A stretch of DNA of 64,000 nt from Alphaproteobacteria bacterium. GTDB taxonomy: Bacteria; Pseudomonadota; Alphaproteobacteria; UBA6615. Shown here piece after piece: positions 76-6,909 of the stretch; position 1 is the first letter of the stretch; every line of letters begins with the position of its first letter. The DNA lies in the NCBI GenBank assembly GCA_021774575.1, contig JAJFIX010000046.1:186001-250000 (forward strand), given 5' to 3'. Made by a program: the position numbers and the translations under genes. The notes beneath the pieces are model-generated. The model made no database searches. It saw only the letters and a list, made by a program, of their open reading frames with translations, and was not told the DNA's origin.

Positions 76-1767
76 TTAGAAATTACGCGCATTGGCCAGG
101 TCATAGGCCGTGTTGACGTCGAGCCAGTTGCCCGAGACATAAATGACCCGAGGTTTTTCACCCTTGGCGATCAAACGGGTCATCAAATCGTCCATGGAGG
201 CGGTGGTGGCGCTGCCTTCGGCTTCCATTGTGGCAATTTCGCCGGCAATCAATTTTGCCCCGCGTGATGTACATTTGGCCAGCCCGATCCAGCGGCCGTG
301 AGCTTTCTCTAGCTCGATACCGCGGCGTAACTCCTCGAGATAGATAACCTTATCTTCCAGATAATCGCCGGTGAACGGCTCGCTACAGACCGCCAGGTCA
401 TCGCGTTCCGCCGACACGATATCGGGTCGCTGAGTCCAGAAACTATCGACGACCATGACGATATCGCCCTCAGCTTCGAGCAGTTGATCGACAATGTGGC
501 TACGCACCATAATATCGCCATAACAAATCAAACAACTGTCATTAAGCACATCGCTCGCTTTGGCGAGGGAGGCAATTTCGCCGGTCGCGGCAAATTCGTC
601 GTTATCGATGGTTTTAATTTTAGGCAGATCGACGGTCTGTTTCCGGTAGCCGCGAACCACGGAAATATCACGCACGCCGCTTTGATTTAAGTTATCCACC
701 AGCCGCTGCAACAACGGGCGGCCACGAATATCGAGCATACATTTGGGCCGATCTTGCGTCAGCTCGTCTAGGCCTGAACCCCGAGAAGCGGCCAGGACCA
801 CCGCACGCATGGCGCCGGCATCGGTGCCCAGATAGCGTTTCTCCGCATCGGCCAGTTCCTGATTGCCAGCGATTTTGAAAATATCACGGACGCTGACGAC
901 TTCGCCTTCAATTCCAGTCAGGCTCTCTTCTTCAAAAATACGGCGGCTGACATCGCGCATGGCTGTCATGGCGGCGCGTAGATTGTGATTGGCCCAGATC
1001 ACCATCGATATCCCGGCCTCGCGGAAGGCGTCAGCGGGGGTGGCGTAATACATGGTCGGCACGATGACCACTGGCGCCCGATTATTCCAGCCATCCATGA
1101 AGGCAAAGATCTCATCCGGCGTTGATTTTTTTGAGTGCATCAAAATGGCATCAGCGCCCGCTTCGACATAGGCGTTGGCTCGGCGCAAAGCTTCATCCAC
1201 CCCATGCCCGGCGATCAACGCTTCAACCCGGGCGACGATGGAAAAATCCGCGTCTTCCTGGCTGTCTTTTCCGGCTTTGATCTTGCCGCAAAATTCATCC
1301 ATGTTGGCCAAAGGCTGGAAGTCACCGATGAAGGAGTTGGTCTTGGGGAATAGCTTGTCTTCAATACAAACGGCAGCAACATTGCGCTGAGTCAGTTTTT
1401 TGACCAGGCGGCGGAAATTATTGAAATTGCCGTAACCGGTATCGCCATCGAGCATGATCGGTAATTGGGTGGCGTCGGCCATGAATTCCAAGGCTTCCAG
1501 TACCTGAGTCCAAGATGCTTCGTTGGAATCGCGCACTCCCAAGGCGGCCGACATCGATAACCCAGATGCCCAAATGCCCTTAAATCCCGCTTCTTCAACG
1601 ATCTTCGCCGACAAGCCATTATGGGCTTCCATAATGAAGGCCAGATCCGGCGAGGTCAGCATTTCGCGGAATTTGCCCTGCCTGCTGTGTGGGCGTGGTA
1701 CTTCGCCGGTATTGGCGTGAATCGGGGTTACATTTGACGTGGCCTTGTTGCCACTTAAATCGGCCAT
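76..1767 (-). CDS. Phosphoenolpyruvate mutase fused to a nucleotidyltransferase
   Basis: This 563-residue protein has two domains. Residues about 30-318 are a PEP mutase of the isocitrate lyase superfamily, the enzyme that makes the C-P bond (PEP to phosphonopyruvate). It carries the diagnostic EDKxFPKxNS signature at 136-145 and the DGDTGYG metal-site region near 107. Residues about 320-563 are a MobA/PntC-like nucleotidyltransferase, with the glycine-rich LAASRGSGL start, a PKCML segment, a YGDI acidic motif and a final GNWLDVNT stretch. PntC-type domains activate 2-aminoethylphosphonate as its CMP ester for transfer to lipid or glycan, and I infer that role here. The gene is followed without a gap by phosphonopyruvate decarboxylase; a transaminase is expected beyond the window edge. 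It is divergent from the dioxygenase gene starting at 1962. Confidence 0.93.
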
Positions 1768-1961
1768 GGGGCAATCCTTGCTCGCATTATGGGGGCTTGT
1801 TCTTAAATACGGGTCGATATATGCATGCGCGCACGCGGCGCGCCAAGGTAAATACTACCTAGGCAGACGGCACAATGTCGCATGAGTGGTGCCACCCGTT
1901 GCGCGTTGGCGCGGCTGGTCGCTATTCTAGCGGCTCCTACCAACAAGGAATATTCGATCAC

Positions 1962-2726
1962 ATGTCCGCGACCCGCCTTACGCAAGACCAACTCGACGCC
2001 TTCGCCCGTGACGGCTTTCTCATATTAAAGGGCCTGTTCAGTGCCGAGGAAGCTGAAAATATCGGCGCATGGACCGAAGAGCTAGATTCCTGGGACGAGG
2101 CGCCGGGAAAATATATGAAATATTTTGAACAGAGCCTGACCGAACCCGGTAAACGGCTCATTTGCCGGATCGAAAATTTTCATCCCTATCACGAAAAATT
2201 TCACGCGCTGATGGATGGTGAAAAATTGCGGGGCACGGCAAGCGCCTTATTCGGCGAGCCGGCTGTCCTATTCAAGGAAAAAATCAATTACAAACTGGCT
2301 GGTGGCGACGGATTTAAGCCTCACCAGGATCAACAAGCCGGCTGGGGCGATTATGCCGATTTGTTTATTTCCGTACTGGTTTGCATCGATGCCCAGACAG
2401 AGGAAAATGGCTGCCTGAAACTGGTGCCCGGTCGCAGCGATAAGGCACTGGTCGGCGATGAATGGCGCCCCCTTGATGACGGGCAGATGGAAGGCATGGA
2501 TTTTGTCCCGTTTCACGGTGAGCCCGGCGACGTCGTCCTGTTCGATAGTTTTGTCAGCCATGGCTCCGAGCCCAACCGCACCGACATGCCCCGGCGGGCT
2601 CTCTACATCACCTATAATAAGGCCTCCGCCGGTGATCATCGCGAGCAATATTATGCCGACAAGCGCGCCAGCTATCCCCCCGATTGCGAACGCGAATTGG
2701 GCAAGGATTATGTTTTTCGCGTGTAA
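1962..2726 (+). CDS. PhyH-family 2-oxoglutarate dioxygenase, PhnY*-like
   Basis: The product is 254 residues from the ATG at 1962, which has AAGGAA eleven bases upstream; an in-frame ATG at 1875 lacks a ribosome site and adds residues unlike the family. It is an Fe(II)/2-oxoglutarate oxygenase of the phytanoyl-CoA dioxygenase family. The HxD iron ligands lie in PHQDQQAGW, the distal His in SFVSHGSEPN, and the cosubstrate Arg in RRALYITYN. The EKINYKL...GFKPHQD region and the C-terminal YYADKRASYPPD segment recall PhnY*/TmpA, which hydroxylate C1 of 2-aminoethylphosphonates. Divergence from a phosphonate synthesis gene, with no PhnZ oxygenase in view, suggests a tailoring role making 1-hydroxy-2-aminoethylphosphonate. 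The family call is firm; the substrate is inferred. Confidence 0.82.
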   Translation: MSATRLTQDQLDAFARDGFLILKGLFSAEEAENIGAWTEELDSWDEAPGKYMKYFEQSLTEPGKRLICRIENFHPYHEKFHALMDGEKLRGTASALFGEPAVLFKEKINYKLAGGDGFKPHQDQQAGWGDYADLFISVLVCIDAQTEENGCLKLVPGRSDKALVGDEWRPLDDGQMEGMDFVPFHGEPGDVVLFDSFVSHGSEPNRTDMPRRALYITYNKASAGDHREQYYADKRASYPPDCERELGKDYVFRV

Positions 2727-5029: not shown

Positions 5030-6118
5030 CTATTCTTTCCGCATGGCATCGAGACCCAAAATTGAACGGGCGTTTTCGGATTTGTCGAGTAGCGCTTGGC
5101 TGAGCTGTACGCCGGAAGCGTCGGCAATTTTGTCGGTCGCGTCAAAATTGGCAATGACGCCAGCCGCATCGACAAGACCGGCATCACCGATGGCCGCACG
5201 TAGGGTGGCGCGCGATGATGCCAAATCATTTTCACTATCGCCGAGAACAGCGGCGGCGAATGCCGACAGCAGGCCACTATGTTCGATACCGCTTTCTTCG
5301 TCCTCTCCGAGTACCGCGCGAACGTTGTTTTCCGCTTCAACTTCTGAGCCGCTCTCCCAGAGCAGCGCCGCGTGGGCCGATGTTCAGAAAAAACACCCGT
5401 TCAACGCGGAGACCCTGGTTGCCAGAAATTCCATTTGCGGTCGGGTGAGAGCGCGTCCCCCATTTTCGCGAGCGCGTGGCACGATGTCTGCGGGCAGATA
5501 GAGGCTTTCGGACATACGGTAATAATCGCGCGCGATATCGGGTACGAGACTAATTGAGCGATGAATATTGGGGACGGTGCCTTGGTTAAAAAGATCGTCT
5601 TCCGATGGGCCGGCCTTACCAGGCTCAATGACGCGAATATAGCCGCCCTCGGCTCGCAATCCGGCCGGTTCCTTGCGCGTTGGTTCGCCGTCAATTGGTG
5701 CCGGCAACGGTAATGGCTCGACTCCTAAGGCTCTGGCAAAACTATCGCTGCCGACGGTCAGGGCAAGAATAACGACGATTTCGGCGTATTGGCCTTCGGA
5801 TATGCCTTGCGCTGTGACTTTATCAAACCAACTACGGGTTAAACGACCTGCGTCGGTGCGAATGCGATGAATGATTTCGACGGCGGCCTCGGGCAGAACG
5901 GAAGACGTCGTATGGTCGCCGGTAATCGTATAGGGCGAGAGAGCATCTTTGCGTCGCTTGCATAAATCACAGTCTGTGGCGTGGCGAACTTCGTCGGCAA
6001 TGGCGAGGCGCTCGGCGCCGGCCCACCAAGTCCCAGGGCGCCCAAGCCGTGCCCAAATAACTGACTGGGTGGCGGGAATATCGGGCCGGATATCAATTTC
6101 AGAATTAATATAAATCAT
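5030..6118 (-). CDS. AhpD-like carboxymuconolactone decarboxylase-family selenoprotein candidate
   Basis: Reading stops at a TGA at 5386-5384 but continues in the same frame, without another stop, to TAG at 5032-5030. That gives 362 residues with residue 245 encoded by TGA. The surrounding peptide is ALNGCFF-[TGA]-TSAHAALLW, the second CMD/AhpD active site CxxCxxxH, with TGA replacing the second Cys (CxxU). Downstream sequence is ordinary family sequence, so this is not a decayed tail. A hairpin matching bacterial SECIS rules follows. An N-terminal CMD-like region with CDLCKRRKDALSPY precedes it. AhpD-type proteins are thiol peroxidases, and CxxU AhpD-like selenoproteins are known from marine metagenomes. 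A single-base sequencing error or nonsense mutation is the alternative. It lies in a likely csrA-hydrolase operon. No sel genes are in the window. Confidence 0.82.
5348..5366 (-). promoter_or_regulatory. Putative bacterial SECIS hairpin downstream of in-frame UGA
   Basis: On the transcript, GCUGCUC (5366-5360) pairs with GAGCGGC (5354-5348) in seven base pairs, one a U-G wobble, leaving the apical loop UGGGA. The loop starts 24 nucleotides after the UGA. Bacterial SECIS elements need a stem-loop with a G among the first two loop bases, about 16-37 nucleotides from the UGA, and both rules are met. Its role in SelB-dependent selenocysteine insertion is inferred. Confidence 0.65.
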
Positions 6119-6135: not shown

Positions 6136-6909
6136 TCACATGTTCTCGAGAGTATCGGGCCACTCGTGGTGCGCATCAAGGAATTCACGAATTGCATCCT
6201 CGACAGCGCGGGGTTGATCAATATCGACGGCATGGGCGGCATCGTCAATCATGGTAATCCTGGAATTTGCGATGCTTTCTTCCAGCATCACCGATGTTTG
6301 CTCGGGAATTATCAGGTCGTCGCTGCCGCAGATAACCAGGGTCGCCGCTTCAATGCTGGTTAGGCGCTCAACCAGAGCGGCGTCGTAGGGCGGTTGATCG
6401 GTCATGTAATGGGCGATTGCATTGAGCGTATCGCCAGGTGACGTTTTTGGCATATCGGCGGCGCTCAGCTTTTCCGGATGCGCATAGAGACGGTTTTGCA
6501 TTTCCTCAGGCGTTTTTGGCCGTCCCTGGGTATCAGGTTGAATCCCGGCCGGGCACATCAAAATGAGCCGATCGACCAGTGCGGGGTCTAGTATCGGCAA
6601 CCACGCAGCGACCCAACCGCCAAATGAATATCCCAAGACATCAAGGCGATCTTCAACTTCCACTCTGGCAAATTCAGCGATGAGCTCGGCGAGGGCCGGT
6701 ATTGACCGAATATCGGGTTCGATCCGCATATCTTCCCAACCCGGAAAGACGGGTACGACGACCCGACGATCCTGACTTAGCCCGTGTAGTGGTTTCGACA
6801 CCCGCGGCCCTCCGGCCCCATGCAAACACAGTAAAGGATCGCCGTCACCGGCCTCGTAATAGGCCAATGTTCCAATGCTCAGCTCGATGGATTTTTTTTC
6901 AAACAGCAT
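6136..6909 (-). CDS. Alpha/beta-fold hydrolase
   Basis: The 257-residue protein is a compact soluble alpha/beta hydrolase. It shows the oxyanion-hole segment LCLHGAGG near 27-34, the nucleophile elbow GYSFGG with Ser at about 95, and the catalytic His in DDAAHAVDIDQP near the C-terminus. The GSDDLIIP segment supplies the acid. Substrate cannot be read from the sequence. It lies 27 bases downstream of csrA and 17 bases upstream of the AhpD-like gene on the same strand, so the three probably form an operon. Confidence 0.85.
   Translation of the reverse strand: MLFEKKSIELSIGTLAYYEAGDGDPLLCLHGAGGPRVSKPLHGLSQDRRVVVPVFPGWEDMRIEPDIRSIPALAELIAEFARVEVEDRLDVLGYSFGGWVAAWLPILDPALVDRLILMCPAGIQPDTQGRPKTPEEMQNRLYAHPEKLSAADMPKTSPGDTLNAIAHYMTDQPPYDAALVERLTSIEAATLVICGSDDLIIPEQTSVMLEESIANSRITMIDDAAHAVDIDQPRAVEDAIREFLDAHHEWPDTLENM

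Follow-up and report, generated by a model that had tools for sequence, protein, structure and literature searches.

An in-frame UGA at the CxxU site of an alphaproteobacterial AhpD-related gene, a probable selenoprotein gene of family NF041238

Results

An AhpD-related reading frame with a single internal TGA

The window analyzed here, a 64,000-nucleotide stretch of an alphaproteobacterial genome, carries on its minus strand an AhpD-related gene whose reading frame continues through a TGA codon. The gene, its putative active-site codons and the neighboring features are as follows.

5030–6118, minus strand: AhpD-related, probable selenoprotein frame; ATG at 6118–6116, TAG at 5032–5030, 362 residues with TGA codon 245 read as selenocysteine (Sec)
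5348–5366, minus strand: SECIS-like hairpin; 8-bp stem GCUGCUCU/AGAGCGGC, loop GGG, 17 nt past the UGA
5372–5374, minus strand: His249, spacing-equivalent of the AhpD relay residue His137; invariant (41/41)
5384–5386, minus strand: UGA codon, probable Sec245, second position of CxxU in C242-F-F-U245-T-S-A-H249
5393–5395, minus strand: Cys242, position 1 of CxxU, predicted to be the resolving cysteine; invariant (41/41)
5429–5431, minus strand: Glu230, spacing-equivalent of the AhpD relay residue Glu118; invariant (41/41)
5960–5971, minus strand: C50-D-L-C53, a further CxxC pair, N-terminal half; present in 35 of 41 members
6136–6909, minus strand: alpha/beta hydrolase gene on the upstream side, separated by 17 bp from the start codon of the AhpD-related gene (Abhydrolase_6, 4.7e-14)

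Translation of 5030–6118 reveals a sole internal stop, the TGA at codon 245 (5386–5384), and with table 11 alone the gene ends at 244 residues. The probability that the 118 codons past the TGA stay open by chance is about 0.007 at the composition of the window, and chance openness is excluded because homology is found on both sides of the TGA. Family sequence on both sides had been claimed in the initial annotation, and the match to NCBIfam model NF041238 indeed covers residues 10–360; relatives at 30–44% identity align across the TGA codon. Translation likewise confirms that the TGA occupies the second cysteine of an AhpD-type CxxC motif (NGCFF-U-TSAH), as had been proposed. The whole draft genome (3.5 Mb in 46 contigs, 97% complete) contains the gene in one copy.

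The protein belongs to a known family

The protein matches NF041238 (AhpD_rel_CFYUT) with an E-value of 3.6e-122 and 408 bits, compared with a curated cut-off of 175, over profile positions 1–356 of 357, thus at full length. NCBIfam names this model "alkylhydroperoxidase-related (seleno)protein". All 41 aligned relatives match NF041238 and no other family (at E 1e-20). Its scores are far under the cut-offs for AhpD proper (TIGR00777, 14.9 bits against a cut-off of 191.95) and for the peroxid_rel family (TIGR01926). Pfam detects just a short CMD core (residues 222–257) in the 362-residue protein; together with the two helical halves of the structural model described below, this fits the earlier description of a two-region CMD protein.

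In a 2026 review, NF041238 appears under the name "AhpD-related protein (hypothetical protein 1, Sargasso Sea metagenome)" with the motif CxxU (PMC13188914). The original 2005 paper on the Sargasso Sea selenoproteome introduced hypothetical protein 1 as a new family of selenoproteins that has CxxU together with a SECIS-like stem-loop (PMC1088965). Since the family was published in 2005 (PMC1088965), equated with the model in the review (PMC13188914) and curated by NCBI, it is not new: the suggestion of a new family member holds in the sense of a further member and fails as a claim of novelty. The present gene shares with NF041238 and hypothetical protein 1 the full-length match, the CxxU motif, a downstream SECIS-like hairpin and co-occurrence with sel genes. 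It differs from other members in its CFF-U motif, which is commonly C[VF]Y-U, so that Phe replaces the relay Tyr, in its single copy, where several genomes have 2–4, and in sequence, with 30–44% identity to the members compared.

The TGA is conserved at the CxxU codon

Among 385 genomes of the class, 27 contain 48 genes that score over the NF041238 cut-off, each with exactly one inner TGA. Reading the DNA placed this TGA at the CxxU codon in all 48 genes, and a separate scan of public genomes found it at the same codon in 80/80 of the best relatives, which come from metagenome-assembled genomes (MAGs) titled Alpha-, Beta-, Gamma- and Deltaproteobacteria, Myxococcota, Acidobacteria and Binatia. 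The comparison of TGA with TGC/TGT that had been recommended as a check on the proposal thus returned TGA throughout. In the order to which the window belongs, 18 of 24 genomes have the family, with 22 matches that all carry one inner TGA (22/22).

No Cys form was seen among the 48 class genes and the best 80 relatives; Cys homologues were apparently counted for hypothetical protein 1 in the 2005 paper (PMC1088965). A phylum-wide sample of 398 genomes returned the window's own gene only and no Cys form, and a search of plasmids for the family gave no match. A single-protein query for close relatives in genome contigs also gave no match; an alignment query found relatives.

Three selB-bearing genomes each contain a weaker AhpD-like match that has a single inner TGA (G376:C2:1385822-1386412, G261:C1:1309112-1309753 and locus L053 on G027:C141), and these may represent other CxxU AhpD/YciW-type selenoprotein families, e.g., NF053654. 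One MAG with a family member (L163) is titled Bordetella parapertussis, a species label in the record title that is probably wrong.

The genome encodes the selenocysteine machinery

The four sel genes whose presence had been named as a check on the selenoprotein proposal are all found in the genome, each over its cut-off. On contig C45, selA (577 bits, cut-off 268), selB (425 bits, cut-off 242) and selC, the tRNA-Sec gene with anticodon UCA (64.5 bits, cut-off 47), form one row, and an Ndh-selD fusion (276 bits, cut-off 125) lies ~1.5 kb from selA. The fusion (L077, G000:C45 262-274 kb) encodes SelD joined to an NADH-dehydrogenase-like domain, 753 residues in a Cys form (CGGCGAK). Between the fusion and the selA-selB-selC row is a gene for a small CMD-like protein; a GST-like gene flanks the fusion on the other side.

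Across the class, selB scores over the cut-off in 54 of 385 genomes: all 27 with NF041238 and 27 of the 358 others (Fisher P = 8e-27, uncorrected for shared ancestry). In several genomes (G007, G185, G279, G357, G091, G123) the family gene lies <10 kb from selB. A non-exhaustive search of the window's own genome confirmed no other selenoprotein client: a SelW-like gene was not found, and none of its eight molybdopterin oxidoreductases has an inner stop (0/8).

A SECIS-like hairpin follows the UGA

By energy alone the hairpin downstream of the UGA is unremarkable (z = −1.1, and −0.75 in wider context). Because Rfam gave no match on the region, we tested the element on an alignment of 48 homologue sequences that is gap-free from the UGA. 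In this alignment 86% of the stem cells are paired, compared with 36–51% when the partner is slid by 1–3 columns, a score to which protein conservation may contribute, as the stem columns are also coding columns of the conserved motif. Double changes within the stem are seen, e.g., CG to AU and UG to GC, and every sequence has the loop G at +28 (48/48). Two third codon positions in the stem, +26 (C) and +32 (G), are likewise invariant (48/48), and since the amino acid of the second of these codons varies, this points to constraint at the RNA level.

Active site and fold

Glu230, Cys242, Sec245 and His249 are invariant in all 41 aligned members, and their spacing, E-x11-C-x2-U-x3-H, is that of AhpD. 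The proton relay of Mycobacterium tuberculosis AhpD consists of Glu118, Cys130, His132, Cys133 and His137, and in PA0269 a Tyr replaces His132 (PMC3141380). At this His/Tyr position the present protein has Phe244, where 39/41 members have Tyr.

An AlphaFold model built from 41 sequences is mostly helical and of high confidence (mean pLDDT 93.3, pTM 0.94). Its residues 156–349 match AhpD-type structures (6k40, Z = 14.1; 2oyo, 13.9; 2prr, 13.7; 1knc, 9.8), and sequence-profile matches pair the Sec with the second CxxC cysteine of such structures. The protein resembles AhpD and peroxidase-related CMD proteins (M. tuberculosis AhpD 1knc; Deinococcus radiodurans 6k40; Ralstonia 2prr) in the fold of its C-terminal half and in the pattern E-x11-C-x2-C/U-x3-H, but differs in that Sec takes the place of the second Cys and in having an extra N-terminal half.

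The N-terminal half, and a whole-chain likeness to sestrin

The N-terminal half contains Cys50 and Cys53 but no aligned Glu/His relay, and the Sec site is at 245. Cys50, Cys53, His69 and His84 occur together in 35/41 members, and all four are absent from the same six. These six (L049, L050, L051, L073, L074, L075), mostly from the window's own taxonomic family, keep the CxxU site but have neither the N-terminal segment with the CxxC pair nor the two histidines. When the two halves were compared profile to profile, C50/C53 aligned with C242/U245 at a probability of just 27% (E = 0.0007), a result at most suggestive of internal duplication.

The best whole-chain structural match of the model is human Sestrin2 (5t0n; Z = 16.9, 236 residues, 3.4 Å, model residues 1–338). 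Sestrin2 consists of two AhpD-like halves, the N-terminal one with the catalytic Cys, and is thought to derive from a duplicated 2prr-like monomer (PMC4674687). Both proteins have two AhpD-like halves per chain and one full active site (5t0n, 5dj4; PMC4674687). They differ in that the site is in the C-terminal half here and in the N-terminal Sesn-A half of Sestrin2, with CxxU in place of a lone Cys; identity is 11–12%, and Sestrin2 is an animal mTORC1 regulator, whereas the present protein is bacterial. The sestrin Pfam model matches none of the 41 members at E up to 1, and CMD alone is common to both. Because there is no sestrin sequence match, we describe the protein as sestrin-like in layout and not as a sestrin.

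Genomic neighborhood

Upstream of the gene are the alpha/beta hydrolase gene and csrA, and downstream is ispG. None of the three was found near the examined homologues in a search that included a positive control; the recurrent neighbor of the homologues is the sel cluster. The csrA-hydrolase operon to which the initial annotation had drawn attention is therefore not a shared context, and it is uninformative on function because these genes were not found beside the homologues examined. Elsewhere in the window, a gene at 76–1767 (minus strand) encodes a PEP mutase with a fused nucleotidyltransferase domain, a fusion typical of phosphonate biosynthesis, and is adjoined by a PhyH dioxygenase gene (1875–2726, plus strand).

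Discussion

We conclude that the gene very probably encodes a genuine selenoprotein of family NF041238, as had been proposed from its sequence; the conserved TGA (48/48, 80/80) and the presence of selA, selB, selC and selD support this reading. From the UGA position, its conservation, the sel machinery, the hairpin, the fold and the relay residues, all computed here, we infer Sec insertion in the cell and, further, peroxide as the substrate, the order of the catalytic steps and the nature of the reductant, as follows. SelB and tRNA-Sec would decode UGA 245 as selenocysteine, guided by the downstream SECIS hairpin, and the product would be an AhpD-type redox enzyme with two halves in a single chain. 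In its C-terminal half, a Glu230/His249 relay would keep Sec245 reactive; Sec245 would then attack and reduce a hydroperoxide to leave a selenenic acid, Cys242 would resolve this acid into a Se–S bridge, and a dithiol donor would reduce the bridge. Taken alone, the reduction of peroxide by Sec245 is reasonably probable by analogy with AhpD.

In favor of a pseudogene truncated by a nonsense mutation are the stop of a standard gene caller at residue 244 and the draft state of the assembly (46 contigs). However, the same TGA occurs in every homologue examined, across several phyla, the downstream frame and the active site are intact, and the sel machinery is complete; the conservation of the TGA effectively refutes this explanation, which we consider highly improbable. 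A single wrong base would suffice to turn TGC or TGT into TGA in one genome, but the TGA stands at the same codon in independent assemblies of many genera, which makes a sequencing or assembly error still more improbable. We give equally little credence to a recoded UGA read as Trp, or to leaky read-through without Sec, as the neighboring hydrolase gene ends normally at TGA, residue 245 sits at the Cys position of related structures, and the genome has SelB and tRNA-Sec.

The alternative that bears on function is a selenoprotein with another AhpD-fold redox activity, such as a Bmp8-like reductive dehalogenation or a role as a thiol-disulfide adaptor. The debrominase Bmp8 is likewise among the structural matches of the model (6ohj, Z = 12.8), AhpD has been described as an adaptor for AhpC (PMC3141380), and we found no substrate evidence for NF041238. 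Against this, the protein retains the E-C-U-H relay of peroxidatic AhpD and is most closely matched by AhpD and peroxidase-related proteins, so we regard a non-peroxidase function as possible but rather unlikely. More speculative, and in our view doubtful, is the idea that NF041238 is a bacterial, Sec-using counterpart of the sestrin architecture in which C50, C53, H69 and H84 might form a second redox or metal center that passes electrons to the Sec.

That an NF041238 selenoprotein family exists was already established. For the present gene, several independent lines of evidence back its assignment as a selenoprotein, and routine gene calling would cut the protein at 244 residues. The sestrin-like layout provides a concrete structural model for testing. 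In the genomes sampled, NF041238 depends strictly on the Sec machinery, and this strict use of UGA suggests that the Sec residue is hard to replace in the NF041238 enzyme.
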